Of a DNA stretch of 41,408 nucleotides, positions 14,295 to 30,550 are shown piece after piece. A model generated the notes under the pieces. The model searched no databases, was not told the DNA's origin, and saw nothing but the letters and a program-made list of their open reading frames with translations. The stretch is from a virus. A program made the translations under genes and the position numbers. Every line of letters begins with the position of its first letter. Positions within the stretch are counted from its first letter, which is position 1. The stretch spans positions 1 through 41,408 of IMG/VR virus record IMGVR_UViG_3300009183_000164; one strand, given 5' to 3'.

Positions 14295-14732
14295 TTATTT
14301 TTTTGTTTTAAAGAATCTTTTAACGCTTTCTGATATGTCGTCAAAGTTTACAAGTATGTCTACACCATCAGGTTGTGTGGTTACTATAATTCCTTTTTTA
14401 TCAATACTTTTTACAACACCAGCATCACTTAAGAACTTTCCTGTGTTGTATCTTTTTACTTTATCAATATCAAACTTTATTGGAATACCTGCTGGTTTTT
14501 CTGCAACTGGGGCCGCTTCTCCTTCTTTTCCTTCTGCATCATCTACAGGAGCTGCATCATCTGCTGGTGCTGCGTCTGCTGCAGGAGCTTCGTCTCCACC
14601 TTTAGTAGGATTTGCAAATGGATTGTCTCCACCCTCTTCTTCAGCAGGAGGAGCTTCTTCTTCAGCTTCTTTTAAATACTGCTTGAATGACTTAGATATG
14701 CGATTCCAGTTTACTTTTTTAGTGGATTTCAT
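14295..14732 (-). CDS. acidic prohead core-type protein
   Basis: A 145-residue protein upstream of the scaffold gene. The basic N-terminus (MKSTKKVNWNRISKSFKQYLKE) ends in L-K-E, a T4 prohead-protease-type site, followed by an Ala/Pro/Glu/Asp-rich segment (about 22-80) and a small C-terminal domain (AGVVKSIDKKGIIVTTQPDGVDILVNF). Position and composition resemble the small T4 core proteins near gp21/gp22, such as gp67 and gp68, though I see no direct similarity. It overlaps the upstream gene by 14 bases. Function as core or internal protein is inferred. Confidence 0.65.
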   Translation of the reverse strand: MKSTKKVNWNRISKSFKQYLKEAEEEAPPAEEEGGDNPFANPTKGGDEAPAADAAPADDAAPVDDAEGKEGEAAPVAEKPAGIPIKFDIDKVKRYNTGKFLSDAGVVKSIDKKGIIVTTQPDGVDILVNFDDISESVKRFFKTKK

Positions 14733-15078
14733 AGTAACGTGATAATGTATGACCCATTTCTTCGTATAACGATTCTAATCTTTGTTGTAATTTACTAACT
14801 TCATTAACAGTTTTCATAAACTGCTCATTGTTAGATTTTAATGACTTCATATTACGTTTAACAGTCACTTCATCAAACCACTCTTCAGTTTCTTGTAATG
14901 CAATCTTTTCAGCATTTTCTACAATCTTATGAATTGCTGCAGCTGCTTCTTTCAACTCTTTTGTGCGATAGATTTTACTACCATATTCGTTAAAGCGCTC
15001 TACTTCAGCTAAGAATGCTGCTTTTTCGTTTAGTTCAACCTTTTGGTCAATACTTTCTTTAATTTTTGTTAGTTTCAT
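14719..15078 (-). CDS. helical prohead-region protein, unknown function
   Basis: A 119-residue, almost fully helical protein starting MKLTKIKESIDQKVELNEKAAF. An L-N-E triplet occurs about 18 residues in, matching the (L/I)xE prohead-protease pattern. The rest is predicted coiled-coil (for example NEQFMKTVNEVSKLQQRLESLYEEMG). It lies between the prohead protease and scaffold genes, so a core or internal capsid protein is likely. No known family is recognised. Confidence 0.6.
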   Translation of the reverse strand: MKLTKIKESIDQKVELNEKAAFLAEVERFNEYGSKIYRTKELKEAAAAIHKIVENAEKIALQETEEWFDEVTVKRNMKSLKSNNEQFMKTVNEVSKLQQRLESLYEEMGHTLSRYYEIH

Positions 15079-15101: not shown

Positions 15102-15383
15102 TTATTTAATAAAAGTGCTTTCGTCGTCAGACACACCTCTAAGTAGTGTACTATAATCGTTTAATTGCTTAATTACTAGTTCTATTCTTTTTTTTCTTTC
15201 TGTTGGATTTATTTCTCTTTTTAATCTCCACTCTTGTGATAGATATCCATCTATTCCTTTTTCGTCTTTTCCAAAAAGTATACTATTTAGTTTATCTTTT
15301 ATTGAAAATTCACTATCACTTGCTTCTTTAACTACTCTTCTAACCTCTTCACGGATTATCTTTTTAAATTCTGTTGTTTTCAT
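15102..15383 (-). CDS. small prohead-region protein with MKTT N-terminus
   Basis: A 93-residue basic protein starting MKTTEFKKIIREEVRRVVKE. The N-terminal helix closely resembles those of the genes at 21794-22030 and 22030-22359 and contains an I-R-E triplet fitting the (L/I)xE protease site. The remaining part is helical and charged, with no recognised domain. It is adjacent to gp21, separated by 2 bases. A capsid-targeted internal protein is inferred. Confidence 0.6.
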   Translation of the reverse strand: MKTTEFKKIIREEVRRVVKEASDSEFSIKDKLNSILFGKDEKGIDGYLSQEWRLKREINPTERKKRIELVIKQLNDYSTLLRGVSDDESTFIK

Positions 15384-15385
15384 AA

Positions 15386-15988
15386 TTACATTATTGATAT
15401 TATATCACTAATAAGTGAGTTGATTTTTAAATATTTATTTGTTTGTGTGGTTGCTTTTACACCTTCATTAAGGTTATCCATAAAAGCTCCTTGAGTAGAT
15501 GGATTAGATACTAGATCCCAGCATACAATTTCAAAATCATCTGCTACAACCACTTTACCTTCACCCAACTCTTTCACACTACCCATACCACGAGAACTAA
15601 TCCCTAGTCTGATACCGGCTTTTAATAATTCTTTTGCAATGTTTCCTGATGGAGTTGCTAGTATTTCTATTTTACCCATTAAGTCATTACCATCCCACCA
15701 TAAATCAACAACATTGTGACATACATTAGCTAAATTAACTACTGATGATTCTGGATGATCTAATTCTCCTAAAGCTCTTTTTTCAGCTACAAAAGTGTTT
15801 TTATATTTATTAGCTTCACGCTTTAATACGTCTAATGGATATTTTCTTTGATTTTGATTAAAAGAATTTCCTCTTTGCATTACACCACTAACAATCAATT
15901 TACCTTGATTTGAGCTGATTGATTCATTAATTTGTTCTGGTGTGAATTGTATTGAACCTATATAATCTACTATTACTTGTTTGTTCAT
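15386..15988 (-). CDS. gp21: prohead core protease gp21
   Basis: A 200-residue T4 gp21-type serine protease, which matures the prohead by cutting scaffold, capsid and internal proteins after (L/I)xE. The family pattern is clear: NQRKYPLDVLKREANKY near 47-63, the catalytic-His region GELDHPESS (His at about 78), and the catalytic-Ser region GIRLGISSRGMGSV (Ser at about 131/132). DLVSNPSTQGAF follows near 158-169, as is usual. An I-N-E near residue 22 might be a self-processing site. The start overlaps the previous gene's stop (ATGA). Confidence 0.93.
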   Translation of the reverse strand: MNKQVIVDYIGSIQFTPEQINESISSNQGKLIVSGVMQRGNSFNQNQRKYPLDVLKREANKYKNTFVAEKRALGELDHPESSVVNLANVCHNVVDLWWDGNDLMGKIEILATPSGNIAKELLKAGIRLGISSRGMGSVKELGEGKVVVADDFEIVCWDLVSNPSTQGAFMDNLNEGVKATTQTNKYLKINSLISDIISIM

Positions 15989-17612: not shown

Positions 17613-17936
17613 TTATTCCTCTGGTAAAATATTGTTTTCGTCTAATAAATTACCCTGTTCTTGATCTTTACTCTTTGTAAAAGTCTCAGTTAATGCTCTT
17701 TTTTTTAAAACACTCATGCTTCTTATCAAACTATCATAACTATCCAAGCTTTTTCTAGAACCTTCATACACCTTTCTAATAGCTTTATTACCTAATGGAT
17801 CCCATCCTAAAGGATGTCCATGTGTTCCGTGTGTTCCAGGCTCAGGTGGTCTTCCAGCTCCTGGCCAACCTCCAATAGGTACTTCATTGTTTTTTTCATC
17901 ATAGCCTCTTGGAATGCCACCATCTCCTTTATACAA
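17613..17936 (-). CDS. gp20: portal protein C-terminal part, shifted frame
   Basis: This frame encodes LYKGDGGIPRGYDEKNNEV, then GGWPGAGRPPEPGTHGTHG and HPLGWDPLG, a Gly/Pro-rich tail I recall from portal proteins of marine T4-like phages, followed by a helical end. It has no ATG; translation would need the TTG at 17936. It joins the portal frame at about 17935, where one additional T (CATTTGT instead of CATTGT on the minus strand) would make a single portal of about 618 residues. It is therefore best read as the portal C-terminus, not a separate gene. Confidence 0.75.
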   Translation of the reverse strand: MYKGDGGIPRGYDEKNNEVPIGGWPGAGRPPEPGTHGTHGHPLGWDPLGNKAIRKVYEGSRKSLDSYDSLIRSMSVLKKRALTETFTKSKDQEQGNLLDENNILPEE

Positions 17937-19468
17937 TGTTCAATATCATGTGCTGTACCGAATGATTGACCTGTTTTAACAGGATCATTACCTTCAGTTT
18001 TAATCTGTTCTAATCTGAATTGAGCTTTGGCATCTTCAACAAGTTTGTTTTGTTCTTCTAAATACTGCTCTTCTGATAGGTTAAATAGGTTTTCATATAT
18101 CCACGTTCTGCTGAATAGCTTTTTTTCTATCATGTCACCAGCTAAAACTACTTTGGTAGTCCATAATTCAACTTTTTCTTTTTCGTAAACTGACGATGGT
18201 GCGGTTAAGCTTAAACTAAAATCTACTAAATCATCATCATTAAATCCTTGAGCATACAAATGCACAATAGCTATTTTATATAATTCAGATGCAATGATTC
18301 TTTGTACACGCTCTATTGTTCTTGCAAAACGAAAATCTTGTGATGCTAAGGTTGCTTTACCAGTGGTATCTTCTTCATATCCTAAATAAGCTTTTGGTAT
18401 TTTAAGAGAACCTAATAGTCTGTTTTTTAAATAATCAATGTCAGCAATACTATCAAAATTAATACCTGCTAAAGTATCAATTGATGTTCCACTTTCAGCT
18501 CCACGTACTGGAAGATAAAAATCTTCTAGTAGGTTTTGCATGTTGTATTTCAAGTTGTAGTCTCCTGTTTGTGGATCAATATATGGAACTTTTTTCATTT
18601 TGTTAACCATATTTTCCATAAACGAATCAACCTCACTTGGTGGTATATTTCCAATATCTATTTTAAATATTCGCTTGTCTGGTGCTCTCATTATACGATG
18701 GATTAGCATGGCATCTTCCATCAATGTTATTTGCTTCCATACTTTTCTAGTTGGTTCAATCATAGATCGCCCGTATGGTAGATAGTTTGTATCTGTTAGT
18801 AATCGGAAATGTGCAATCTCGTAGTTATCATACACGTCAGCATCTGGATCAGATGATGTTATGTATTTAGTTGAGGAGGTTGAGCTGTAATCTCTTTTAA
18901 ATTGTACTATATGTGGATTTGCTGGATCAAAGCCTTCTTCTCTTATCATTTCATAAGGAGATATTGGTTCAATACCAGTAATGCCATATTTTTCTGATAT
19001 GTTTAAGTATAGAAAAAAATCACCATACTTTACAACATTTCTAATCCATGGCCATAGATTGAACTCTACGTTCATTATATCATAAAACAGATTATGTAAA
19101 ACCTTTTGAACTCTTTCGTTACTAGTTTTGATTGTCAATACATCACCAAATTCATTTTTAGCTGTACACTCATCTGCATAGATGTCTAAAGCTGATGATA
19201 TGATACTATCTGTATCCATTGCCTCATAGTCACGAAACAATTCTAATCGTGTATATAGTTGTAATTGCCCTTCTGAATGTGAGAATCCTGTCTTACCAGT
19301 AAACATTCTTGAAAAGCGGTCTATTCTGCTATTTGTGCTTAGATTGCCGTTAGACTGTATGTGAGATGTGTCTACAACCTTTAGTTGATTTCCACCTACA
19401 TTACGTATTATAACGTCTGTGCTAAATAATTTTCGTAATCTGCTAAATAGTGTTTGGTTTTCGGCCAT
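17807..19468 (-). CDS. gp20: portal vertex protein gp20 (frame broken near C-terminus)
   Basis: T4-type portal protein, the dodecameric channel at the packaging vertex. It is recognised by its order after terminase and by typical motifs: YADECTAKNEFGDVLTI near 100, RIMRAPDKRIFKIDIGNIPPSEVDSFM near 260, and RGAESGTSIDTLAGINFDSIADIDYLKNRLLGSLKIPKAYLGYE near 323-366. The annotated frame is 553 residues, but from about residue 511 onward (GTAHDIEH) the true protein continues in the minus-one frame, where a typical Gly/Pro-rich portal tail is coded. The final ~40 residues of this frame (CIKEMVAFQEAMM...) are thus probably spurious. The upstream element TATTTATA is 14 bases from the ATG. Confidence 0.9.
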   Translation of the reverse strand: MAENQTLFSRLRKLFSTDVIIRNVGGNQLKVVDTSHIQSNGNLSTNSRIDRFSRMFTGKTGFSHSEGQLQLYTRLELFRDYEAMDTDSIISSALDIYADECTAKNEFGDVLTIKTSNERVQKVLHNLFYDIMNVEFNLWPWIRNVVKYGDFFLYLNISEKYGITGIEPISPYEMIREEGFDPANPHIVQFKRDYSSTSSTKYITSSDPDADVYDNYEIAHFRLLTDTNYLPYGRSMIEPTRKVWKQITLMEDAMLIHRIMRAPDKRIFKIDIGNIPPSEVDSFMENMVNKMKKVPYIDPQTGDYNLKYNMQNLLEDFYLPVRGAESGTSIDTLAGINFDSIADIDYLKNRLLGSLKIPKAYLGYEEDTTGKATLASQDFRFARTIERVQRIIASELYKIAIVHLYAQGFNDDDLVDFSLSLTAPSSVYEKEKVELWTTKVVLAGDMIEKKLFSRTWIYENLFNLSEEQYLEEQNKLVEDAKAQFRLEQIKTEGNDPVKTGQSFGTAHDIEHCIKEMVAFQEAMMKKTMKYLLEVGQELEDHLSLEHTEHMDIL

Positions 19469-19482
19469 TATACTTTATTTTT

Positions 19483-19490
19483 TATAAATA
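19483..19490 (-). promoter_or_regulatory. ACTATTTATA promoter-like element
   Basis: Gene-direction GACTATTTATAAAAAA in the 31-base gap between terminase and portal, 14 bases upstream of the portal ATG. Confidence 0.45.
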
Positions 19491-19499
19491 GTCTTGTTA

Positions 19500-21080
19500 T
19501 TAGAGAAGCCAGTTAATATCTTCGGAATTACCATTAGGTAGATGCATTTTATATGGATCATTACTTACTGATGGTCTGTTGTATATAGATACTGTTGATT
19601 TTATATTTGCTACTGCCATTCTATTAATTTCTATTCCAGCTTGTCTTAATTTTAATGCCGTATCTCTTACCCACAATCCTTCACAAAAACTCATAATCAA
19701 ATCGTCGTTATATCCGGATGCTGCTTCTGCTCTTGCGTTTTTCCATATAAATACATATAGTTCATCTACTAATCGTTTACTTCTAATAATACAACTTTTT
19801 TCACGGATATACAACTCCATTTTACTAATTGCTAATGGTCTTGTTTTTTGACTCATTGTAAATCCAGCAACCATGTCAGATTTGTTGGTTAAATCATATC
19901 CTTTTGTTAGAAACTTGTCTGAGTCTAATACATCGTTTTTATAGGTGTAATACAAGTTCTTATAACCCCTTTCTATAATTTGTTGTAATGTAGCCCAACC
20001 AACATTAGCATTTTCAACAACAAGTAATGCATCATTATATTCAGTGCCAACTGCTACTAACATATTCCCATAATCCTTTGTTGTTAGTTGTCCAACATAT
20101 TCAGCTACTTGTCTACAAGATTCAATTTCTATTACATGAAATGCTGAATAGTCACTACCATCTCCACGTGCAACGTCAGCTGCTATTATATAGTTTTTTG
20201 AGTAATCAGGTATTTCCCATACCCAAAAGTTACCATCAAAACCTCTTTTTTCAATTGGCTCTTGTACATATGTTTGTGCATAGTATGCTATCATTTCTGG
20301 AGATACTACTGTGTTACCGGATGTTGAAAAGTCACAGTCGCATTCTTGTGCTGCTAATCTAACTCCTAATTCTTCATCTTGTCTATCTCTCCAAGCTTGG
20401 TTTCTTTCTGGATGTACTTGCCATGGAAGTCTTTTTGTTTTAAATTTGTTGTATGTTCCACCAGCTTCTGCTTTAACCCATGTTTTATGGAAAAAATTAC
20501 CAGTTCCATTAGGAGTTGATAATATAATACCTCTACCACCAGTACTCAGTGTTTGTTGTAGTGATGCCCATAATTCTTCAGCATTATCAACGAAAGCAGC
20601 CTCATCTATAATTACTAATGATAATGCTTCTGACCGTCCTGATGTTCCTGAACTTGCTACTGCTTTGATTTGTGATCCATTAGATAGTCTAATAGATAGT
20701 TTATTGCTTTCATCTGCTTTTAACTTTAACCAAGTTGGTAAGTTATTAAACATTACGTGTACTTTTGTAACTAGGTTTTTAGATGTGTTTTGATCTATAG
20801 CTACTACTAGTATGTTTTTATCGTTGTGAAATAATATTGTCCATAAAGAATATCCTGCTGTTAGTGTTGATATACCTAACTGTCTTGATTTAAGTATTAT
20901 CATCCTATCATTGTCTTGAAAGTCTTGTAGAGTTTCTTCTTGAAATGGATATAAATGAAATGGTACTTTGCCTTTTGTTGGATGTTGAATCATACAATAC
21001 TTTTTCATAAAGTATGATGCTGATTTGGCGCACTTGACGTACTCCTCTTTAATTATGTCTTTAAGGCTCTTTTCGGCCAT
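19500..21080 (-). CDS. gp17: terminase large subunit gp17
   Basis: A 526-residue packaging motor ATPase/nuclease. The ATPase domain has the adenine-binding-type FHLYPFQEETL near 41-51, a Walker A variant KSRQLGIST (64-72), Walker B with catalytic Glu LVIIDEAAF (155-163), and the coupling motif STPNGTGN near 188-195. The nuclease domain has the three acidic sites expected for gp17: Asp in AADVARGDGSD (about 302), Glu in VVENANVG (about 356) and Asp in GYNDDLIMS (about 459). Slightly shorter than T4 gp17 (610). Expected small subunit gp16 and sheath/tube genes are not adjacent. Portal follows after 31 bases. Confidence 0.95.
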   Translation of the reverse strand: MAEKSLKDIIKEEYVKCAKSASYFMKKYCMIQHPTKGKVPFHLYPFQEETLQDFQDNDRMIILKSRQLGISTLTAGYSLWTILFHNDKNILVVAIDQNTSKNLVTKVHVMFNNLPTWLKLKADESNKLSIRLSNGSQIKAVASSGTSGRSEALSLVIIDEAAFVDNAEELWASLQQTLSTGGRGIILSTPNGTGNFFHKTWVKAEAGGTYNKFKTKRLPWQVHPERNQAWRDRQDEELGVRLAAQECDCDFSTSGNTVVSPEMIAYYAQTYVQEPIEKRGFDGNFWVWEIPDYSKNYIIAADVARGDGSDYSAFHVIEIESCRQVAEYVGQLTTKDYGNMLVAVGTEYNDALLVVENANVGWATLQQIIERGYKNLYYTYKNDVLDSDKFLTKGYDLTNKSDMVAGFTMSQKTRPLAISKMELYIREKSCIIRSKRLVDELYVFIWKNARAEAASGYNDDLIMSFCEGLWVRDTALKLRQAGIEINRMAVANIKSTVSIYNRPSVSNDPYKMHLPNGNSEDINWLL

Positions 21081-21095
21081 ATGTAACTTGTATTA

Positions 21096-21515
21096 TTAAC
21101 GTATTACGAATCCTAGTGCAGTGGTTACAAGTAACCCTGATACAGCTATTCTAAAATACTTGTTTGCTTTTTTTGCTTTAACAACATCTTTTTCTAAACC
21201 AAATACTATGGTATGATACTCAGTTTCTTTTTTTCTATATAACTCGATTTGTGATGCATAGTTAGATACTTTGTTAACATACATTGTAACCAATCTATCA
21301 CTTGTTTTAGTTTTTTCTTCTAATTGACTTACTAGTATGTTAGTCTTAGCTAATTCTACTTTTGCAGAATCTCCTCTTACTAAATCAATTGCAATTTGTT
21401 TTGCAACGCTATCTGGAAAACAATGAACTTTTTTATTTGTACCTGTTTGTGAAAAAGTCGCCAAGCTCATCGTGATTAGCACTACTAATAACCTTAATTT
21501 TTTTACCGTAATCAT
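21096..21515 (-). CDS. signal-peptide/coiled-coil/C-terminal TM protein, lysis-like
   Basis: A 139-residue protein with a Sec-type signal sequence (KKLRLLVVLITMSLATFSQ, residues 5-23), then VHCFPDSVAKQIAIDLVRGDSAKVEL, a coiled-coil, and a C-terminal membrane segment (about 120-137, VSGLLVTTALGFVI). I recall very similar proteins ('CFP..VAK.IA.DL.RGDSAK.EL') in Bacteroidota phages near lysis genes. No lipobox Cys is obvious at the signal cleavage site, so it is not a classical outer-membrane spanin. It overlaps the upstream gene by 83 bases in another frame, an arrangement typical of spanin pairs. Envelope/lysis function is inferred. Confidence 0.65.
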   Translation of the reverse strand: MITVKKLRLLVVLITMSLATFSQTGTNKKVHCFPDSVAKQIAIDLVRGDSAKVELAKTNILVSQLEEKTKTSDRLVTMYVNKVSNYASQIELYRKKETEYHTIVFGLEKDVVKAKKANKYFRIAVSGLLVTTALGFVIR

Positions 21516-21780
21516 TTTGTATTTTTTTTATTTTGTTTTTTGTTGAGTCAATTTGTGAATCCATTAAAGATAAACTATCTTTATAAACCGCAATAGTGCT
21601 ATCGTATTTAAGCTGTATCTCTTCTAATGCACCAATACATACTGTCAAGCTGTCTATTTTTTGTTTTTGCTTGGCATATGGATCTAAATCGTTTGTATTA
21701 CTGCTTGTTGATATAAATAAACAAACAACTAATATTATTATAATGATTATAAGTGTTGCTGTAAATTTATCTATTTTCAT
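21433..21780 (-). CDS. inner-membrane spanin-like (Rz-type) protein
   Basis: About 115 residues from the preferred start MKIDKFTATLIII at 21780 (an earlier ATG at 21837 would overlap the previous gene). A single N-terminal membrane helix (about residues 7-24, TATLIIIIIILVVCLFIS) is followed by a periplasmic-type coiled-coil (IDSLTVCIGALEEIQLKYDS to KNKIKKIQNDYGK) and a short tail ANHDELGDFFTNRYK. This is the layout of i-spanins/Rz and similar phage lysis proteins, and the tail resembles those of small coiled-coil proteins in Bacteroidota phages. The downstream overlapping partner at 21096-21515 supports a lysis pair. Confidence 0.6.
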   Translation of the reverse strand: MKIDKFTATLIIIIIILVVCLFISTSSNTNDLDPYAKQKQKIDSLTVCIGALEEIQLKYDSTIAVYKDSLSLMDSQIDSTKNKIKKIQNDYGKKIKVISSANHDELGDFFTNRYK

Positions 21781-21793
21781 AACTGTGTTTTTA

Positions 21794-22030
21794 TTACTTT
21801 TCGTCTTTGGATGTGTAATTATTGTCCACGTAATCAAAGAATTCTTTTTTCTTTGCTGGATCTTTTAGATCTGCTGGTGAGTTAATTTTAAACTTATCCA
21901 TAGCTTTTTTAAAGAACTCTTGATAAGCTGTATCTTCTTTAAGACGTTTTACAATCATCTTAGTTTTGTTTTCGTTTAAAGCTTTTTTAATTTCGTTACG
22001 AACTGCTTTTCTTAAATTAGTTGTTTTCAT
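21794..22030 (-). CDS. small protein with MKTT N-terminal helix and C-terminal helical domain
   Basis: A 78-residue basic protein. The first ~20 residues (MKTTNLRKAVRNEIKKALNE) form an amphipathic basic helix ending in L-N-E, a candidate prohead-protease site. The remaining part has the sequence DTAYQEFFKKAMDKFKINSP then ADLKDPAKKKEFFDYVDNNY, a small helical domain I recall at the C-termini of several marine-phage proteins. Start and stop overlap the upstream gene's stop (TAATG). A capsid-targeted internal protein is the working inference. Confidence 0.6.
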   Translation of the reverse strand: MKTTNLRKAVRNEIKKALNENKTKMIVKRLKEDTAYQEFFKKAMDKFKINSPADLKDPAKKKEFFDYVDNNYTSKDEK

Positions 22031-22359
22031 TAGTGAACAATGTTTGTTTTAATTGTTTTTAAAATATTTAATTTTTGTTCACTTGAATCTGTAAAACGCT
22101 CAATTACACTAGACAACATTTCTGTTAATTCTTCTGTACCTACTTGAATACCACTGTCTTTTAGCTTTCTAATATACCCACTAGTAATTGCTTCTAGTTT
22201 TGGATCTAATCCTTGTTCCTCTTCAGGTTCAGGTTCAGGTTGCTTTTCTTGTTTTGGAGCTTCTTGTTCCCCTTCAACTTCTAACAACTTGCTAATTTCT
22301 TTTCTAAGCATTGAACGCAAAGCGTTTTCGTTTATTTTGGGTTTTCTAGTAGTTTTCAT
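22030..22359 (-). CDS. small acidic/helical protein with MKTT N-terminus
   Basis: A 109-residue protein. The basic N-terminal stretch MKTTRKPKINENALRSMLRK continues into EISKLLEVEGE, with an L-L-E triplet, then a Gln/Glu/Pro-rich linker (about 36-52) and a helical end (LEAITSGYIRKLKDSG...). The N-terminus parallels those of neighbouring small genes. It is coupled to both neighbours by ATGA and TAATG overlaps. No known family is recognised; internal head protein is inferred from the shared N-terminal pattern. Confidence 0.55.
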   Translation of the reverse strand: MKTTRKPKINENALRSMLRKEISKLLEVEGEQEAPKQEKQPEPEPEEEQGLDPKLEAITSGYIRKLKDSGIQVGTEELTEMLSSVIERFTDSSEQKLNILKTIKTNIVH

Positions 22360-22766
22360 TTTTGTTTATCTATTAATTTTATAAAATCAGTTGCTTTATT
22401 ATTAAAGTTTTTCTTGTCTTTGTTATCAAATATTATTCTTTCAATTTGACCATCTTTCTGTTTCATTAAACAAACAGTTGCTTCAAATTTTTCAAGACCA
22501 GTAAGTGTGTATACAATACCAAATACTGCATATTTTTCAGTCACTTTAGCATATAGCTTAGCATCTGCTATAATTAAATCTAGCATTCCAAACTGAGTAA
22601 GATCAGCTACAAAGATATTTTCTTCATTTTTTACACCTAAAAACTTAAACATTGGTTTGTATCCATGAGCTGTTTGAAATTCACGGAAATAAGGGATTGC
22701 CATTAGTTCTGGTGTTGGTTGATCCTCTTCAACTTCTCTTAGTGGTATTAGATTTATTAGTTTCAT
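22356..22766 (-). CDS. small protein with MKLxNLIPLREV N-terminus
   Basis: A 136-residue protein. The leader MKLINLIPLREVEED is almost identical to that of the next upstream gene (MKLVNLIPLREVDEN) although the bodies differ, and both contain L-R-E, a fit to the (L/I)xE prohead-protease site. The body (about 20-136) looks like a compact alpha/beta domain with NIFVADLTQFGMLDLIIADAKLYAKV and IVYTLTGLEKFEATVCLMK. The domain is not recognised. A shared cleavable targeting leader is the simplest reading. Confidence 0.6.
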   Translation of the reverse strand: MKLINLIPLREVEEDQPTPELMAIPYFREFQTAHGYKPMFKFLGVKNEENIFVADLTQFGMLDLIIADAKLYAKVTEKYAVFGIVYTLTGLEKFEATVCLMKQKDGQIERIIFDNKDKKNFNNKATDFIKLIDKQK

Positions 22767-22767
22767 T

Positions 22768-23139
22768 TTATTCGTGTTTTTTTAATTCTGTATATAATCC
22801 ATCATATAACTTTTTTACTCGCATGAAATCAGCGTCCTCTAAAGTATCTGATAACTTGTCCATGTATTTTTTTATTTCTGGAGCTGCAAGTAGTGATAAT
22901 AAATTGGATGTTGGGTTTTCATCAACTTCTCTCAATGGTATTAGGTTTACTAGTTTCATTTTTTCTTTATTATAAATAGTCTCTGTTAAGCTAACTATAC
23001 TCTCGTTTGCATTTATGTATAAAGCAGCTAAATATTTTTTTAAAGCCTTTTTATTACCTGCTGTTGCACCAACACGTTTACCAGTGTCTTTTTTATACAC
23101 TACATATTTATCACCTTGTTTTTTAACTTTGTATGGCAC
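22768..23139 (-). CDS. composite ORF: MPYKV small protein joined to MKLVNLIPLREV protein
   Basis: The 123-residue frame has two parts. Residues 1-48 (MPYKVKKQGDKYVVYKKDTG... KKYLAALYINANES) resemble a short stand-alone family common in phages. Residues 61-123 begin at an internal ATG (22959) with MKLVNLIPLREVDEN, the same leader as the next gene, followed by a short helical body. The TATTTATA element lies at 22978-22971, inside the frame and 11 bases before this internal ATG. Two separate proteins are likely: 22768-22959 (63 residues) and an upstream small protein whose own stop may have been lost, for example by one missing T near GTTAGC. Confidence 0.55.
   Translation of the reverse strand: MPYKVKKQGDKYVVYKKDTGKRVGATAGNKKALKKYLAALYINANESIVSLTETIYNKEKMKLVNLIPLREVDENPTSNLLSLLAAPEIKKYMDKLSDTLEDADFMRVKKLYDGLYTELKKHE
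22971..22978 (-). promoter_or_regulatory. ACTATTTATA element inside an ORF
   Basis: Gene-direction GACTATTTATAATAAAG, 11 bases upstream of an internal ATG at 22959. Its spacing matches elements before other genes and supports an independent start there. Confidence 0.45.
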
Positions 23140-23140
23140 G

Positions 23141-23746
23141 TTATGATTCTAAGTGGTTTGATAATACTCCACCAATTGATGTAGCATAATTAAATAGATG
23201 ATGAACGTCTTCTGGTGTTAATTTTACTTTTTTCTTTGTGTAATCCATACCTAAAGAACCTATAAACTTACCATCAAAACCTTTGATTGCAAATATATAG
23301 CCTGATTTACATCCTGTGTCTTCTGCTATATACTTTAATCCATGAGTAGATATTGTCTCGTCTTTATAATCTGGTATTTCTATTATATCGTGTTCTAGTA
23401 AATAGTTTATTGATTTACTAAATAAATTTACTGGTATGTTTTGAAAGTTGTTTTGTACTGAGCCTACTCCTATGTTTACTGTTTCATATATCAAGCTAAA
23501 TTTAGCTATTGATTTTCCGGTTGGATAATAATGACCTCCATTATGAAATTGTGTTATCCAAACACGATCTGCTTCATACTCAGCTTTAATATGATCAAGC
23601 TTGTCCATCACTTTTTCACTAGTTTCTAGTGCATCAGTTAGTATGTCTGGTTTTTCTTTCTTTTTTTCAATATATTGTCTGATTACTTGGACTAATATTG
23701 GTCCCGCAAATCCTGTTATGAATGCTGCTATTATTGATGGATTCAT
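23141..23746 (-). CDS. membrane-anchored GAF-like domain protein
   Basis: A 201-residue protein. An N-terminal membrane helix (about residues 4-22, SIIAAFITGFAGPILVQVI) leads into a charged linker and a domain starting near 60 with DRVWITQFHNGGHYYPTG and ending with SGYIFAIKGFDGKFIGSLGMDY and a helix HHLFNYATSIGGVLSNHL. The strand/helix order is that of a small-molecule-binding GAF-like fold; this is a fold guess, with no ligand motif visible. It overlaps the upstream gene by 4 bases (ATGA). Function unknown; a membrane sensor or structural role is possible. Confidence 0.55.
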   Translation of the reverse strand: MNPSIIAAFITGFAGPILVQVIRQYIEKKKEKPDILTDALETSEKVMDKLDHIKAEYEADRVWITQFHNGGHYYPTGKSIAKFSLIYETVNIGVGSVQNNFQNIPVNLFSKSINYLLEHDIIEIPDYKDETISTHGLKYIAEDTGCKSGYIFAIKGFDGKFIGSLGMDYTKKKVKLTPEDVHHLFNYATSIGGVLSNHLES

Positions 23747-24252
23747 TTAGTATTTTTAAAGTCTTGTACTTTTTTAGTTATGTCTTCGACAACTGAGTCT
23801 GTGATTTTTTTCATTTCGGTTTGATCTGCATCTCTCCATTTTTCCACTTGACCATTTTCAGTAACGTGTGCTTTTGCAACTCCCTCTTGATTGTAATCGT
23901 CCATATAACTAATTAAGTCCTTTAAGAAACCTTCAGCGTTAGCTGTTATTTTTGCTTTTTCATATTCTGCCCATTTTCCAGCTTTCCTAATTACATGTTC
24001 TGCACTTATAACGCAGTTAAAGCATGTTTTATGAATTGCCCACATTTTTTCGTCTAAATGATGTTTCATAGATGCACCACAATTTGGACATGCTAATGGA
24101 GTTGAAAACTGTTTACGAGCTTCATCCATTTTAGACACTGTTCTTTTGATACCATTCTTAATAGTCCATAACTTTCCACGTTCTGTCCAAACATCACCTT
24201 CAATGTGCTTAACGTGTTTTTCTTCTGTTGTAACAAATAAACTATTTTTCAT
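23743..24252 (-). CDS. zinc-ribbon protein of unknown function
   Basis: A 169-residue protein with a four-Cys zinc-binding site, CPNCGASMKHHLDEKMWAIHKTCFNC written as two CxxC pairs (about residues 55-58 and 77-80). The flanking regions are helical and charged (WTIKNGIKRTVSKMDEARKQ before, and a KAKITANAEGFLKDLISYMDD helix after). Similar zinc-ribbon proteins occur near head genes in marine T4-like phages as I recall. Start and stop overlap neighbours (TAATG, ATGA). No specific function can be assigned. Confidence 0.65.
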   Translation of the reverse strand: MKNSLFVTTEEKHVKHIEGDVWTERGKLWTIKNGIKRTVSKMDEARKQFSTPLACPNCGASMKHHLDEKMWAIHKTCFNCVISAEHVIRKAGKWAEYEKAKITANAEGFLKDLISYMDDYNQEGVAKAHVTENGQVEKWRDADQTEMKKITDSVVEDITKKVQDFKNTK

Positions 24253-24566
24253 TACTTAATTTGTAATTTATATTTATCTATTACGAATTGCACATGTTTA
24301 TCAAACTTACGTAAAGCTCTACGTAAATCTAATCTAACACCTTCAGTTAGTTTGTTACTCTCTTCTCTATCGCTTACCCCACGAAAAAACACTTTTCCTC
24401 CAGTTGATGATACGCTTATTGTAAAATCAAACTCTGGTGTTCCTGCTTCACCTACTTGTGTAAAGTTTGCATCGTAGTGAATAGTCATGTTTGTGTTATT
24501 GGAAGTTGCAATTGCTTCTTTCTTCTCTTCTAACTGCTTTTTGTTTATTAAATTTTTTAATTTCAT
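24252..24566 (-). CDS. small protein with MKLKNLINKKQLEE leader
   Basis: A 104-residue protein. The basic leader MKLKNLINKKQLEEKKEA includes L-E-E, a candidate prohead-protease site, and resembles other leaders in this block. The body has beta-type TIHYDANFTQVGEAGTPEFDFTI and SSTGGKVFFRGVSD followed by a helical, basic end (LDLRRALRKFDKHVQF). No family recognised. It is preceded by the ACTATTTATA element at 24591-24584, 17 bases upstream of the ATG, and is the first gene of a coupled run extending to about 21.1 kb. Confidence 0.6.
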   Translation of the reverse strand: MKLKNLINKKQLEEKKEAIATSNNTNMTIHYDANFTQVGEAGTPEFDFTISVSSTGGKVFFRGVSDREESNKLTEGVRLDLRRALRKFDKHVQFVIDKYKLQIK

Positions 24567-24583
24567 TTTGTTAAATATTTAAT

Positions 24584-24591
24584 TATAAATA
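24584..24591 (-). promoter_or_regulatory. ACTATTTATA promoter-like element
   Basis: Gene-direction AACTATTTATAATTAAAT in the 62-base gap after the nucleotidyltransferase-ligase gene, 17 bases before the ATG at 24566. Confidence 0.5.
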
Positions 24592-24628
24592 GTTTTGTTT
24601 TTTGCAATAACTTAGTATATTGTGTATT

Positions 24629-26515
24629 TTAAAATCTCATATAGCCTAATAACTGGTTAATTGGAGCAAAGGCTCCAGTTAATTTAAAAAGCTTTTCATT
24701 ATATTTAAAAACTATTCCTTCTGTAGGTAAAATGGCATTGAATCCACCTATATCTTGTAAGCGAGCTAATTCTCTTTTTAAAAACTTTAGTGCTACAATT
24801 CCCTCATCAGTTGTGTCTGTTTTTGCAAAAGACTTGATTTGCTCAATTGCTTTTTTAAGATCACCTTTCATCTGTCTAACACTATTATTAGGGTTTAGTG
24901 ATACTAGATTTTCAATGTTTCCAAGTGTGTAAACTCCTAATCTTAGAAACAAGTTTTCAATTGGTTTGTTTGCTATTTTCTTTTGTTCAGCGTATTCTTT
25001 TTTATCAAAGTCCATTACCCAATTTTTAAACCCATCATTATCAATACCATCACGAATTACTCTAATATTTACTTCTTTGTTTCCAAAAGACCATCTATTA
25101 ATTAACTGCACTATTGTGTTTTCAGGTACAGTGTATTGGTATGTTTTTGCTATTTGGTTAATGTAATTTTTCCACCAAGCTTGATAATAAAGACCTACTT
25201 TATCATTTGGTTTTAGCTTGTATATAGACATTAATGATGCAATAATTTTAGTTAGCTCTTCTTTCTGAGCTTTGTAATCTGCAGACTTTTTTATTGTGAT
25301 TGGATCTGTTACTCTAATCTCATAGGTCTTTTGGTTTTCTGCTTGTACTTGTCGAATAGCTCCCTGTAACTGTCTTACTGCTTCAACGTCTTCACTAACT
25401 ACATTACCCGCTTTATCGTACTCTTTAATGTGATGCAATCTTAATTGTGAAGCTCCATATGGAACTACGTTAGCTGTTTCAGGATACAGTACTTCTAAAT
25501 TTACAAACTTAGCTCCGTTTGCAAAAAACTTTTGTTTTTGATTTACTGATAATTTGTTAATGGCTGCTTCCAAGTCTTTCATTGCTTCTGTAAATGCTGC
25601 TTGGATTGGACCTCTACCTGTAAACATGTCTTCAACTTGCTTTACTGTAAGTGAGTTGGCTGCAAAGTCCTTTACTTGACCTTTGTTTCTTGCTGCTCTA
25701 ACTTGACCATCTTTATAGGTAACCATTAAGTTTTGTCCATCTAGTTTCTCTTGTGCAGACACTAATGTACCGCCTAATGCAGCATCAATCATGTTTTGTA
25801 CATCTTTAAAGGTAAGATCATAATCTTCGTATGGATGTGCAAGATGTCCTGTTGCTCCTCCTTCTAATAACACCATAGATTCAGACATTGCTCTTGTCTT
25901 TTTTGTTAAAACATCATATATTGCACGAAGAATGTTCTCAGGTATTGTTGATGGATAGTTTGTTTTAAAATTTTTGTAATCTTTTTTTGCTAGGTCTTTT
26001 CTTAATGTTGAAGAACCTACGCCTTTACCATTTAATCCATCTGTTCTTCCAGTGTATGGTAGTGGTCTTGTGTTTATAGGTAATTCAACTACTTCCACAC
26101 CAGTTTTATGGTACTTAGATCCTTCTGCATGGCCTTGTACAAACTTTTTAACACGTTCGTAATCTTCACCTTTACTGCTTGCTGCTAATGCATAAGTTCC
26201 TGGTTTAGCTACTTCAATGTATTTATAAGCAGCTAGTAGCGGGTTGTCTTCTGCTACCTTTTGTACTGTTATGTTTCTAGCACCTATCAATAACTCATTC
26301 CATACTGCTATGCTTTGCTCTCTAGTAATACCTTCACGTTCTTTTGGACCAATTAAGATCCTTACTTCAGAAACATTTGGTAGTTTTGAGTATCTTACTG
26401 CTAAGTCTAAATGACCTCCATGAGGTGGTTTAAATCCGCCAGGTAACAATACAATAATGCCTGTTTCAGCTTCTTGCAATATACCTTCTACTAAATACTT
26501 AGTTAAATCATTCAT
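24629..26515 (-). CDS. bifunctional nucleotidyltransferase (HIGH-type)-nucleic-acid-ligase-like fusion
   Basis: A 628-residue two-domain protein. Residues about 18-205 are an adenylyl/cytidylyl-transferase-type domain: LLPGGFKPPHGGHLDLA with the HxGH site (HGGH, 32-35) and VGSSTLRKDL near 166-175, equivalent to the ISSTxxR motif. Residues about 214-628 are a covalent nucleotidyltransferase (ATP-dependent RNA/DNA-ligase-like): motif I EKLDGQN (Lys at about 257), KFVNLEVLYP near 336-345, motif IV TEGIVFKY (about 598-605) and motif V LFKLTG (about 609-614). A similar 'cytidylyltransferase' is annotated in T4-like marine phages as I recall. The N-terminus MNDLTKYLVEGILQEAET contains two LxE triplets. 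NMN adenylylation, RNA repair, or both are possible; substrates are unknown. Confidence 0.82.
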   Translation of the reverse strand: MNDLTKYLVEGILQEAETGIIVLLPGGFKPPHGGHLDLAVRYSKLPNVSEVRILIGPKEREGITREQSIAVWNELLIGARNITVQKVAEDNPLLAAYKYIEVAKPGTYALAASSKGEDYERVKKFVQGHAEGSKYHKTGVEVVELPINTRPLPYTGRTDGLNGKGVGSSTLRKDLAKKDYKNFKTNYPSTIPENILRAIYDVLTKKTRAMSESMVLLEGGATGHLAHPYEDYDLTFKDVQNMIDAALGGTLVSAQEKLDGQNLMVTYKDGQVRAARNKGQVKDFAANSLTVKQVEDMFTGRGPIQAAFTEAMKDLEAAINKLSVNQKQKFFANGAKFVNLEVLYPETANVVPYGASQLRLHHIKEYDKAGNVVSEDVEAVRQLQGAIRQVQAENQKTYEIRVTDPITIKKSADYKAQKEELTKIIASLMSIYKLKPNDKVGLYYQAWWKNYINQIAKTYQYTVPENTIVQLINRWSFGNKEVNIRVIRDGIDNDGFKNWVMDFDKKEYAEQKKIANKPIENLFLRLGVYTLGNIENLVSLNPNNSVRQMKGDLKKAIEQIKSFAKTDTTDEGIVALKFLKRELARLQDIGGFNAILPTEGIVFKYNEKLFKLTGAFAPINQLLGYMRF

Positions 26516-27053
26516 TAATGGTGTCTTGGTTATAAATATGCTTGTTAGTAAGTTGACGCTTTAAATTGGCAACTTCTAATTGTAATTTTTCTGTTTTACT
26601 TATTAAATCTATTATTATTTTGCTTAATGGTGTGTCTTTTGTATTTTCATACTTTTTAAAGTATAAATCATCTGCTACTATGTTACCGTCAACAAATAAC
26701 TTACAATTACTATACGCTTTTTCATCCAAAGATTGACCAATATAAATCTTTTCCATGTTACGATATGGTATTATTTCACGCATCTCTACATCTTTTGTTA
26801 GTGGATTGTAGGATAGGTAGTGTAATATAAAGTAAATGGCATCGTTTTTAAGTTGTGAGTCTGTTGATGGCATTCCAATACGTAGTGTATATGGATTTGT
26901 TTCATGCTTATCTTTTATTTGTTTTATATTTTCACCTTGCCAACTTTGGTAGATGTTTTTAATAATTATTTTACCTAAAGCATGTTCATTAACCATTCCT
27001 TGTATTGCTGGAAATGGTACTGTGCAGTTTCTTATTGTTTTGTTGTTAATCAT
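26508..27053 (-). CDS. unknown protein with C-terminal coiled-coil
   Basis: About 181 residues from MINNKTIRNCTVPFPAIQG at 27053, 4 bases after the previous stop; an ATG further upstream at 27089 would overlap that gene. The body includes YQSWQGENIKQIKDKH, YTLRIGMPSTDSQLKND and KLFVDGNIVADDLYFKKYE, then a C-terminal coiled-coil (IDLISKTEKLQLEVANLKRQL). A short fibre-like or oligomeric structural protein is possible. It overlaps the ligase-fusion gene by 8 bases. No family recognised. Confidence 0.55.
   Translation of the reverse strand: MINNKTIRNCTVPFPAIQGMVNEHALGKIIIKNIYQSWQGENIKQIKDKHETNPYTLRIGMPSTDSQLKNDAIYFILHYLSYNPLTKDVEMREIIPYRNMEKIYIGQSLDEKAYSNCKLFVDGNIVADDLYFKKYENTKDTPLSKIIIDLISKTEKLQLEVANLKRQLTNKHIYNQDTINE
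26531..26538 (-). promoter_or_regulatory. TATTTATA element in the 3' end of the upstream gene
   Basis: Gene-direction CATATTTATAACC, 15 bases upstream of the nucleotidyltransferase-ligase ATG, within the final codons of the preceding gene. It may give the enzyme its own transcript. Confidence 0.4.
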
Positions 27054-27057
27054 AATG

Positions 27058-28392
27058 TTAGCCTCCGTCAAAATTAGTACCACCAGCAATTATGCTTGCT
27101 TGTTGTGCAAGATCTATAACAGTTGTTGCTATTGATGTTGGTTTAATAAATCTTGGATCAGTTGTTACTCCTATTTTACACATTTTAAATTCATCAACAA
27201 CAATGCCAAAATAAGTATTGTCCGTAAGTGAACCACTAACCTCTAAGCAAAGTTGTGCTGGGTATCCATATTGTATTAGGTTAAAGTTAAACTTTTCAAC
27301 ATAGAATCCTGTTTGTATGTCATAAAAAGACAAAGCTGCTGTTCCATTATATTGATTTCCGATGGTTACTATGTTATTTGCTGGAGGATACCATCCTGGA
27401 GCTCCTGCTACACAGTTTGATGAAGATGGTATTTGTGGTGTGACGTTGTGAATAAAAGCAGTCATAAAACTACCTAAGTCTGGATTATAATCAAGTGGTG
27501 CATACTTTTTTAAACTAAACTGAACATTATATATTCCGCCGTTATCATAAAAAATACTATCTACATGTTTACCTGTGCTTCTTGCAAACCAATAATCCGT
27601 TCCTCTTGTTGTACCACTTCCACTATATGGTACTGGGAAGTATAGTCTTCTTGCTTTTAGTGCTTCAGTTTTGTTTTTTAATCCAGTTGCTGAATTGTCT
27701 GTAGCGTACGCTAATGCTGTGACTAATGACTGGCTTATTTCTGTCTTGCTTATGCCTACTCCACCACTTTGATCAAAATACTGATTGTCAACTGATGATG
27801 TTGATCTACTATTTACTGCTGGCCATGTTATGTCGTAGCCATAGTATGTTCCTATATTAGGTTGACCAACTTGTGTGTATTGAATAGTGGTACTCTTAGG
27901 ATCAAACGCTTTCCAGCTAGATGTAACTGAGTAGCTGCTTGATGTAGAAATTCCATAATCTGAGCCTTTCTGATACGTAGTGTTTAGTTGCTTGCTCCAC
28001 TCTCTACTAAAAAAACTTTTTGAAGTGTATGTTGTATACCAAAGCACGTATCCAAATGGATACTCACCATCAGTTCCTGTTACAAAGGACCAAGATGGTG
28101 TTAATACATTCCATAAAAAATCTCCAGCTGCAGATCCCCATGGTAATGCTTGGTATGTTGCATTGCTTGCTGAGTTTCTTGTTGTGGTCCAAAGAGTTGT
28201 TGTTGTTCCTGGTCCTGGGTAACGCACCGTTCCATCTTCTGGAAAATTTAAGAAGCTTTTTGAGACTCTTGCAAATGACGGTCCAGTTGATACTACAGCT
28301 GCTGAGTTTTTGTCGTACCAATCGGATGGTAGGCTGCCTGTTGGTCCAAACCTTTTATAAAAAAAATCAAAAGCTTTTGTTGTAAATCCCAT
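27058..28392 (-). CDS. putative structural protein, unknown
   Basis: About 444 residues from MGFTTKAFDFFYKRFGPTG at 28392, which lies after the upstream stop; an ATG at 28425 would add 11 residues with overlap. The protein is Ser/Thr/Tyr/Gly-rich and beta-type, with many aromatic motifs (for example GTYYGYDITWPAVNSR and TDYWFARSTGKHVD). No catalytic motif is recognised. Composition and its place after a 713-residue structural gene suggest a tail or fibre component. The ending IIAGGTNFDGG is Gly-rich. Confidence 0.6.
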   Translation of the reverse strand: MGFTTKAFDFFYKRFGPTGSLPSDWYDKNSAAVVSTGPSFARVSKSFLNFPEDGTVRYPGPGTTTTLWTTTRNSASNATYQALPWGSAAGDFLWNVLTPSWSFVTGTDGEYPFGYVLWYTTYTSKSFFSREWSKQLNTTYQKGSDYGISTSSSYSVTSSWKAFDPKSTTIQYTQVGQPNIGTYYGYDITWPAVNSRSTSSVDNQYFDQSGGVGISKTEISQSLVTALAYATDNSATGLKNKTEALKARRLYFPVPYSGSGTTRGTDYWFARSTGKHVDSIFYDNGGIYNVQFSLKKYAPLDYNPDLGSFMTAFIHNVTPQIPSSSNCVAGAPGWYPPANNIVTIGNQYNGTAALSFYDIQTGFYVEKFNFNLIQYGYPAQLCLEVSGSLTDNTYFGIVVDEFKMCKIGVTTDPRFIKPTSIATTVIDLAQQASIIAGGTNFDGG

Positions 28393-28408
28393 TTTATTTG
28401 TTTTTAAT

Positions 28409-30550
28409 TTATGCACCACCATCAAGAACTGCTACTTCGGTTGTAGCTGTTCCAGATGTGTATTCAAAAATAAATATATCATCTTGACATGTGTTTGATT
28501 GTACATCTCCTTTTAAGTTTAATACCAAATCGTCTATGTATGTGGTATACTCGGATTGTTTACCTGTGTAATCAAAGTAGTCTATTTTAAAATCTATAGA
28601 TTGTGATAGTGTTGCTGCTGCAATTAGTTCGGTTGGTAGTGGTATTGCATATTGTACTATGTTTGGTGTAAACCCATTTAATAAGTATGGCTTAATACTC
28701 ACATCACTAACATAAGCACTGCCAGTATAACCAGCCATGTCGTCTATAATTTTTGATCTGAGTAGAGGTCTACCAAAACCATTACCATCTGTGTCAAAGT
28801 CAAACAAGACTCTTCCATAGTATTTTTGGACTGCTCTATCGTTTTTAATCTTACCTAAATATTTACCAAATCTGTTTTGTGATCCTCCATATCTTGACTT
28901 CTCATTGTTTGCTGACTTTAAAAAGCCTCTCGGATATGCTAGTGATGTTATGACATAAGCACTTAGTGGATCACTATTCATGTACACTTCTAGTTCAGTA
29001 TAAGGTTCTAAAGTTAAATTAAATCCTAATGTATAAGTTTGGTTTTCGTTGTAGTTTTGATTGAATTGTGTTGTAAGTAATGCTGACTGTGTGTAGCTTG
29101 CTTGTACTTTGGCTGAGTCTATTTGTGTTGAGTTGTTTACTGATCCTGTAATTGTATCAAATCCTTGTGAATCTTCTAGCAAATTAAGCCAATAACTGTC
29201 TAATATAGATTGTGCTGTGAAACACCCTATTAATCTATAATCACTTTCATATCTTGCATAGTTGAGTGTATTACTAAAATTAGAGTCTGTTAAGTATTCT
29301 ACTGGTATAATTATTTGATCATTTAGTACTTTGTAGTCGCCTGTTATTGATCCTAGTTTTGCAGAAGTTTTAATTCTATATACTTGTCCACTTATTGGAT
29401 TCAAATCACTAAATGTAAATTCAACATAAGAGGAGCTTACAGTTGAGCTTGTTGCAAATGCATCTGCTGATGGTACGTATGTTATACTACCACTAAAGGA
29501 AGATGCTTTTTTATATGTAAAGTTTGAATAAGCTCCTAATGATAGGTTGTTGTCGTCAACTGTTATTATGTTTATTGGTTTGCTTATTACAGCTTGTTTA
29601 TCATTTATTACGTCCACAATTGTAGAGTAATAGCTTGCGAGTTGGTTTGATACACTATCATATGCTGAGTATCCTGGTGGTAGTGCTGGTGTTAGGTTTG
29701 TTGGTGTACTTGCAGAACTAGCAAACTCAAAGTAACCTCCTAAATAAGCTTTGGTAAAAAAGCTACTTGTTGCTTGTAGTATGGTGTTAAATCTATTTAC
29801 ATAATTAATTACCGATCCATTTGTTATATCTTGATCTGTGTCACGGATGTTAGTTGGAACGTTATTTGCTGTTTTTGGAGCTCCTTTTGGATTAACAGTT
29901 ATTGCTCTCAATCTGGCATCTAGTATGTCTTCGCTTGAAGCAAAATCTCTATCGTATCCAAAAAAGTTGGCGGATGTTATGGATAGTAAACTTGGATTTG
30001 TTATGGAAGATGTATAGTTGTACGCACTTGACGTTGATGCTATGGCCAATCTTGTTGGTGTAATTATTTGTGCCACTGATGTTTGTGGTGGTTGGTTAAA
30101 AAGTAGTTCACCATTATTTCTTTCAAAAGGTAATATATTAAAATTCTTTGACCACCTAACATTATATTTTTTTTGTTGATTTTTTGGTATTTGGTTTCCT
30201 TGCTGATCAACATCAGCTTCACCTACTATGTAAACTGTAGCTAAGCCTTGAGCTGTTATATCATACACATCAAATGCAACATAGTAGTTGTTAAATCTAT
30301 CAACAAAATCAACTATTTCTACATATACATTTTGACCTTCTGCGTCAATAATCTCAACATCTACTGACGAACCTATTCTTAAATTAGTGCTACCTTTTAT
30401 CTTAATTACATATCGCCCACCACCAACTACTAACGGAAAATCTTGAACATCAAAATAATCCGGTGAAGTTTCTGTTGTGTCTTCAATGTAATAAGTTTGT
30501 CTTGAATACTCTCTTTGTATTGGTATTTTATATGTGGATAATAGTGTCAT
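28409..30550 (-). CDS. large structural protein, baseplate/tail type
   Basis: A 713-residue protein. The N-terminal ~170 residues form beta-rich domains (GGGRYVIKIKGSTNLRIGSSVDVEIIDAEGQNVYVEIVDF), resembling Ig-like/OB-like modules of phage structural proteins, followed by VRWSKNFNILPFERNNGELLF. The middle is Ser/Thr/Asn-rich, and the C-terminal part has GRVLFDFDTDGNGFGRPLLRS and FKIDYFDYTGKQSEYTTYIDDLVLNL. Similar long proteins occur in marine T4-like phages as I recall. A TATTTATA element sits only 4 bases upstream of the ATG. Tail or baseplate role is inferred. Confidence 0.62.
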   Translation of the reverse strand: MTLLSTYKIPIQREYSRQTYYIEDTTETSPDYFDVQDFPLVVGGGRYVIKIKGSTNLRIGSSVDVEIIDAEGQNVYVEIVDFVDRFNNYYVAFDVYDITAQGLATVYIVGEADVDQQGNQIPKNQQKKYNVRWSKNFNILPFERNNGELLFNQPPQTSVAQIITPTRLAIASTSSAYNYTSSITNPSLLSITSANFFGYDRDFASSEDILDARLRAITVNPKGAPKTANNVPTNIRDTDQDITNGSVINYVNRFNTILQATSSFFTKAYLGGYFEFASSASTPTNLTPALPPGYSAYDSVSNQLASYYSTIVDVINDKQAVISKPINIITVDDNNLSLGAYSNFTYKKASSFSGSITYVPSADAFATSSTVSSSYVEFTFSDLNPISGQVYRIKTSAKLGSITGDYKVLNDQIIIPVEYLTDSNFSNTLNYARYESDYRLIGCFTAQSILDSYWLNLLEDSQGFDTITGSVNNSTQIDSAKVQASYTQSALLTTQFNQNYNENQTYTLGFNLTLEPYTELEVYMNSDPLSAYVITSLAYPRGFLKSANNEKSRYGGSQNRFGKYLGKIKNDRAVQKYYGRVLFDFDTDGNGFGRPLLRSKIIDDMAGYTGSAYVSDVSIKPYLLNGFTPNIVQYAIPLPTELIAAATLSQSIDFKIDYFDYTGKQSEYTTYIDDLVLNLKGDVQSNTCQDDIFIFEYTSGTATTEVAVLDGGA

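Follow-up and report, generated by a model that had tools for sequence, protein, structure and literature searches.

Main genes and leader-bearing genes of the window

The stretch of viral DNA analysed here (41,408 nucleotides, positions 1 to 41,408 of IMG/VR record IMGVR_UViG_3300009183_000164; hereafter the window) is a 41 kb fragment of an uncultured, T4-type phage of the far-T4 kind, whose main genes all lie on the minus strand. The nine genes named for them carry a short, basic leader of 8-27 residues with a hydrophobic-x-Glu end, which stands at the gene start in eight of them and internally in the ninth, and we consider it probable that these leaders are prohead-targeting propeptides cut by the gp21 protease, functionally like the capsid-targeting sequences (CTSs) of T4 but different in sequence. 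We favour this reading because the leaders are modular and N-terminal, are linked to gp21, resemble the maturation site of gp23 and share peptides with the scaffold protein gp22. Judged by gp23, Flavobacterium phage immuto and Microcystis phage Mel-JY01 (~54% identity) come closest to the window among cultured phages. For comparison, 80 loci with a related gp17 were fetched, and gene starts in the metagenome loci were called by a custom script. The main genes of the window are the following:

10729-11397, minus strand: PhoH
11479-13080, minus strand: gp23 major capsid protein (phrog_138, E=1.2e-72)
13077-14147, minus strand: gp22-like scaffold, located between gp21 and gp23, acidic, with an N-terminus (MNKLLKDAIADAKAVRETA) common to relatives
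15386-15988, minus strand: gp21-type prohead protease, with a DHP motif at residue 77 and an SSRG motif at residue 131
17807-19468, minus strand: gp20
19500-21080, minus strand: gp17 terminase

The preliminary description of this DNA had stated that it encodes gp21, and the match to phrog_207 at 15386-15988 (E=2.7e-56) bears this out. The leaders, with the evidence by which each was placed, are listed below; an arrow in a motif marks the leader end or cut site.

14667-14732, minus strand: leader MKSTKKVNWNRISKSFKQYLKE (KQYLKE↓AEE) of the 145-residue acidic gene 14295-14732; ortholog comparison
15055-15078, minus strand: leader MKLTKIKE of the conserved small core-region gene 14719-15078; ortholog comparison
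15324-15383, minus strand: leader MKTTEFKKIIREEVRRVVKE of gene 15102-15383, adjoining gp21; recurs on other bodies
21971-22030, minus strand: leader MKTTNLRKAVRNEIKKALNE of the 78-residue gene 21794-22030; translation, positive in the motif model
22279-22359, minus strand: leader MKTTRKPKINENALRSMLRKEISKLLE of the 109-residue gene 22030-22359; ortholog comparison
22734-22766, minus strand: leader MKLINLIPLRE of the 136-residue gene 22356-22766; ortholog comparison
22927-22959, minus strand: internal leader copy MKLVNLIPLRE in the open reading frame (ORF) 22768-23139, which has a GTG start; ATG at 22959
24525-24566, minus strand: leader MKLKNLINKKQLEE of the 104-residue gene 24252-24566; ortholog comparison
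26471-26515, minus strand: leader MNDLTKYLVEGILQE of the 628-residue nucleotidyltransferase/ligase-like protein (cytidylyltransferase) 24629-26515; ortholog comparison

Six neighbouring genes (21794-26515) had been proposed to begin with leaders; the translations agree for five of them, while MKLVNLIPLRE lies inside a GTG-started ORF. Likewise, a pattern assigned to three genes beside gp21 holds for 14295-14732 and 15102-15383, whereas ELNE was dropped as the leader end of 14719-15078, the conserved leader in relatives being the earlier MKLTKIKE. Genes 23141-23746 and 23743-24252, in the same stretch, have no leader; the former encodes a membrane-anchored protein that is kept in relatives and whose FHNGG motif hints at a GAF-like domain. 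Pfam and PHROGs searches assigned almost no function to the leader-bearing genes of the window.

Conservation of leaders in related phages

In most families for which orthologs exist the leader end is conserved, and two of the nine leaders are restricted to the lineage of the window. In the leader of the cytidylyltransferase, L4, L8 and E15 are at least 90% conserved across 10 relatives, and a linker of variable length follows straight after E15. Orthologs of 22030-22359 (loci L004, L005, L006, L007 and L010) have a basic helix that closes with E↓A(E/D) and is followed by a variable acidic linker, and MKL(I/V)NLIPL(K/R)E of 22356-22766 is kept in L005 and L006, where the next 10-15 residues vary and the body is ~70% conserved. 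Relatives of 14295-14732 in L005, L006 and L010 show L(R/Y)EAE(E/K) at the same place, and for 14719-15078 MKLxxILxE is conserved in about a dozen relatives (e.g. MKLKKILSE, MKLTNILKE and MKLKQLLQE). The body of 24252-24566 is preceded by MKLKNLINKKQLEE in the window, by MKLKKLLE in L005 and by MKLKKLIEKQMLDE in L007. In L006, L009 and L030 the leader of 15102-15383 is found in the corresponding position next to gp21, in front of different bodies; for the body that it precedes in the window, the fetched loci contain no relative at E<=1e-3.

The first 45 residues of ORF 22768-23139 form a KxGDKY domain, which lies upstream of the internal MKLVNLIPLRE and is a separate 67-residue gene in L005. 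The same order as in the window, from the KxGDKY domain through Met..IKLASLI(P/K/N)L(K/Q)E to the body, is found in L030, L037 and L042, so that the internal leader is no accident; it may serve as a start within the ORF or as a site of internal cutting. Direct reading shows that the starts at 22959 and 22766 are identical at 29 of 33 nucleotides.

Several of these modules are joined elsewhere. Single ORFs of L030 (7482-8228), L037 (12809-13549) and L042 (10929-11951) combine the KxGDKY domain, the internal leader, a body like that of core gene 14719 and a 21794-like body, which are separate genes in the window. In L010 (122-2323) the leader-bearing cytidylyltransferase carries the body of 24252-24566 as a C-terminal fusion, and LTEE is retained at the joint. 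Elsewhere in the window, an unassigned TTG-started ORF (17613-17936) overlaps the end of gp20 in another frame.

A portable leader on unrelated proteins

The leader is a portable peptide, the same tag standing on unrelated bodies, as seen most clearly for MIKLKDLLxE in relatives. This sequence matches at least 120 stretches in viral contigs, compared with none for its scrambled version MLKIDKLLxE. Among the matches listed it is almost always N-terminal, and 82 ORFs of at least 50 residues that carry it fall into 45 body families, some of which may be remote homologs that BLAST did not join; Nudix, zeta-type kinase, HAD, lysozyme and zincin bodies are included. A search without the start codon gave 85 instances, 49 directly after ATG and 5 after GTG/TTG, with an ATG 2-4 codons upstream in most of the others. 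Since these 85 peptides are encoded by 70 different nucleotide versions and are placed at N-termini, it is the peptide that is kept there by selection. T4-type gp21 was found in 20 of 40 MIKLKDLLxE contigs vs 4 of 40 random contigs of similar size (p=0.0002).

Enrichment over chance

At the level of families the leaders are real and not due to chance. For the window alone the excess is modest: N-terminal [LIVMF]xE occurs in 11/21 head-block genes vs 3/20 others (p=0.013), the latter being mostly tail-fibre genes of odd composition. In the complete immuto genome, an N-terminal hydrophobic-x-Glu was counted in 24/31 head-block genes vs 40/154 elsewhere (p=1e-7), and Mel-JY01 gave a weaker signal (11/22 vs 43/165, p=0.02). 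We furthermore grouped 1,239 proteins by body into 456 families and scored each family with a motif model trained without it; 36 families exceeded the 1% null, where 4.6 were expected. The pattern that it learnt has L or I at both P4 and P3 and Glu at P1, preceded by basic residues. The earlier statement that the repeated N-terminal LxE triplets are not easily explained by chance is thereby upheld by immuto and by the family test, and much less strongly by the window itself; single genes such as 21794-22030 may still owe their motif to chance.

Immuto (NC_055915; loci L082-L084; mainly positions 102294-127000 of the record) has further leader types. (F)(D/N)LKKFLVENKLTxNS is found on four bodies, one of them outside the block, KSQLRxIIKEEL on several bodies, and SEQFxRMQxLAGIITE on two bodies in the genome.

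Leader ends and the maturation site of gp23

T4 gp23 is cut at FLTE↓AE. This site aligns with Q(L/I)(I/V/L)xE↓(A/G/N) in 20 of 20 relatives, which places the end of the gp23 propeptide in the window as follows:

12916-12930, minus strand: QLVKE, end of the gp23 propeptide, with the predicted maturation site QLVKE↓GS (alignment with T4 gp23)

The gp23 site and the leader ends share one P4/P3/P1 pattern (hydrophobic residues at P4 and P3, Glu at P1), which the leader model had found independently, and both kinds of site would be cut by gp21 in far-T4 phages. In addition, several gp23 proteins begin with MSLKNILGE or MDLKNILNE.

Peptides shared with the scaffold

RMQKLAGI, part of an immuto leader, has 81 matches in viral contigs. 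The majority of them (66) lie at most 4 residues from the end of the ORF, and for 39 of these the ORF bears the gp22 N-terminal signature. Another 13 of the 81 are at N-termini of small unrelated proteins. A relaxed form of the peptide gave 26 matches in a set of 1,350 proteins (366,105 residues), namely 20 gp22 C-termini, the gp22 of the window and 5 N-terminal leaders, with none elsewhere. KDLLKE is found nine times in 341,000 residues, each time N-terminal, in six gp22 proteins and three families of leader-bearing proteins (cargo). The placement of the two peptides thus shows that cargo and scaffold share terminal peptides, and the simplest reading would be that they have a common binding partner while the head assembles. 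Contigs with RMQKLAGI leaders contain gp21 in only 2 of 13 cases, most of them being shorter than 16 kb. The window has its own version of the scaffold peptide:

13131-13157, minus strand: SRFKTLVSI, the C-terminal scaffold peptide (RMQKLAGI, RFKKLAGL and similar in relatives)

The scaffold of the window continues for 17 residues beyond this LAGI-type peptide (13077-13130), and relatives end close to it; the C-terminus is possibly frameshifted or extended here. Proteins lacking the gp22 N-terminal signature also end in RMQKLAGI in four contigs (L372, L374, L429 and L440), so the scaffold peptide may serve as a C-terminal tag as well. No mention of MQKLAGI was found in the literature searched, and the parts of the far-T4 genome paper reached by a keyword look held nothing on leaders.

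Proposed prohead targeting and alternative explanations

As we picture it, a short, basic, amphipathic N-terminal peptide would dock the protein that bears it into the scaffold core while the head is growing; gp21 would then cut after the hydrophobic-x-Glu end and free the mature cargo inside the head, from which it could be ejected with the DNA. The whole course of docking, cleavage, packaging and ejection is proposed from sequence. Because two leader types match gp22 termini, the simplest docking mechanism would be one in which cargo imitates the scaffold ends, KDLLKE corresponding to the N-terminus and RMQKLAGI to the C-terminus of gp22 in relatives. A wider proposal, for which we see about even chances, is that T4-type phages outside the T-evens load an open-ended set of effectors by such scaffold mimicry (through KDLLKE, cut by gp21, or through RMQKLAGI), and that any new gene could have its product become cargo by gaining one of these two tags.

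If the targeting reading is true, sequence alone would suffice, through the leader, to predict the virion-borne proteins of an uncultured T4-type phage. Such proteins have until now been recognised chiefly in T-even phages, from their signal sequence, and in a few phages from proteomics. Since T4 internal proteins block host restriction enzymes (PMC12373910), a list of leaders would also be a source of candidate counter-defence proteins, and the scaffold match would suggest how a tag of 10 residues is recognised.

The preliminary description had taken the leaders for T4-like capsid-targeting sequences. Conserved leaders with variable linkers, unrelated bodies, N-terminal placement, co-occurrence with gp21, the gp23-site match and the scaffold-shared peptides argue for this, whereas the T4 sequences themselves do not fit: the far-T4 leader model misses IPII and IPIII (MKTYQEFIAE), which rank 137-138 of 234 T4 proteins, with high ranks for gp24, gp68 and gp22 only; we therefore claim no homology to the T4 CTS at the sequence level. 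Further points weigh against the targeting reading too. Comparison across related phages, favourable in most orthologs, left the 21794 body leaderless in three close relatives (L005, L006 and L007), so that its leader is lineage-specific, and the cytidylyltransferase of L073 is leaderless as well. The gp17 of the window begins with MAEKSLKDIIKEEY (SLKDIIKEEY) and scores in the motif model; as the terminase gp17 of T4 is not packaged, the motif alone is no proof. Half of the MIKLKDLLxE contigs are without gp21, though they are mostly fragments, and when gp20, gp17 and gp23 were sought in these 20 contigs, four more proved to be T4-type by gp20 or gp23. Finally, no cargo leader in the window exactly reproduces an end of the window's gp22, and the residue after the leader Glu varies widely among the MIKLKDLLxE ORFs.

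The unrestricted residue after Glu would suit leaders that bind scaffold or capsid and are not cut by gp21, the Glu belonging merely to the helix pattern. Such docking without cleavage would also account for RMQKLAGI-type leaders, which have no LxE at one fixed distance, and for the scaffold C-terminal copies, after which there is no cut site. We nevertheless regard it as unlikely, given that leader ends and the gp23 site agree in their P4/P3/P1 pattern and that the conserved E15 of the cytidylyltransferase leader gives way directly to a variable-length linker.

It is less likely still that the leaders mark proteins of the head-assembly core only, in which case they would be structural rather than delivered effectors and the enzyme bodies would be degraded core fillers or morphogenesis factors. 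A leader is indeed present on core-region gene 14719, leaders resemble the gp22 and gp23 N-termini, and the T4 core proteins gp22 and gp67 are cut by gp21 (PMC9026906). Yet many bodies are enzyme-like (Nudix, zeta-type kinase, HAD, lysozyme and nucleotidyltransferase/ligase) and, unlike essential core proteins, are not conserved between close relatives.

The near-identical DNA at 22959 and 22766, together with the shuffling and fusion of modules between relatives, could be taken to mean that 5' sequence is copied between genes as a start region with no targeting function. That the leaders are such a by-product of recombination seems very improbable, as the number of nucleotide versions points to selection on the peptide and not to copied DNA, and as the same peptides occur at scaffold ends. 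Chance occurrence of (L/I)xE near the N-termini of lysine- and glutamate-rich proteins, which the small window-only excess over compositionally odd genes might suggest, is hardly credible in view of the leave-one-family-out test, the scrambled control, the N-terminal placement and the ortholog conservation.

Comparison with known systems

A counterpart to the proposed prohead-targeting leaders is found in Agrobacterium phage Atu_ph07 (NC_042013.1, locus L484), part of whose gp53 is a homolog of a leader-bearing far-T4 kinase. Ten tandem genes at 19485-29508 (gp53-gp62) start with M(K/R)W..L.E↓ and contain a YRG motif that is reminiscent of Alt-type ADP-ribosyltransferases. They lie within coding sequences (CDS) 31-76, of whose products mass spectrometry detected 29 in virions, only two having previously been predicted to be structural (PMC6102473); at the level of the gene cluster, these proteomics data agree with prohead targeting. 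Atu_ph07 thus resembles the far-T4 phages in having tandem leader genes in a cluster of virion proteins and a scaffold-like protein, gp214, with a LAGI-type end (LKRLAGIKK), but it is a RaK2-like jumbo phage and its leaders are of another sequence type.

In SPN3US and phiKZ, N-terminal propeptides of head proteins are likewise cut by a gp21-like protease, and the paralogs gp53 and gp54 have diverged bodies with an identical N-terminus (PMC5694885). Their propeptides differ from the far-T4 leaders in being mostly longer than 100 residues, with the cleavage motif A/S-x-E, and there is no confirmed counterpart of the T4 scaffold gp22.

The closest parallel is T4 itself. The N-terminus of its gp22, MLKEQLIAE↓A, is leader-like; this protein is not known to end in the LAGI peptide seen in far-T4 scaffolds and Atu_ph07 gp214. 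T4 internal proteins co-purify with gp22, and their CTSs of 10-19 residues direct them into the core and are cut off by gp21 behind L/I-x-E (PMC9026906). When residue 10 of the IPIII leader is Asp, targeting still takes place but cutting is blocked (PMC9026906). The ip genes were found through this shared leader (PMC9026906; PMC12373910, citing Repoila 1994), which is all that IP1-3, inhibitors of GmrSD enzymes, have in common (PMC12373910), and reviewers have raised the idea that T4-like phages could use the CTS to package a variety of proteins (PMC9026906). With the T4 CTS already described, the mechanism considered here would be of a known kind: like those of IPI-IPIII and Alt, the far-T4 leaders are N-terminal peptides of 10-20 residues with a hydrophobic-x-Glu end, placed on unrelated proteins in phages that encode gp21. 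They differ in being other sequences, of several types and on far more varied cargo, with two types matching scaffold termini. As far as we have searched, what is new relative to the published papers is the extent of the system in far-T4 phages, its separate leader sequences, the breadth of its cargo and the match to the scaffold termini.

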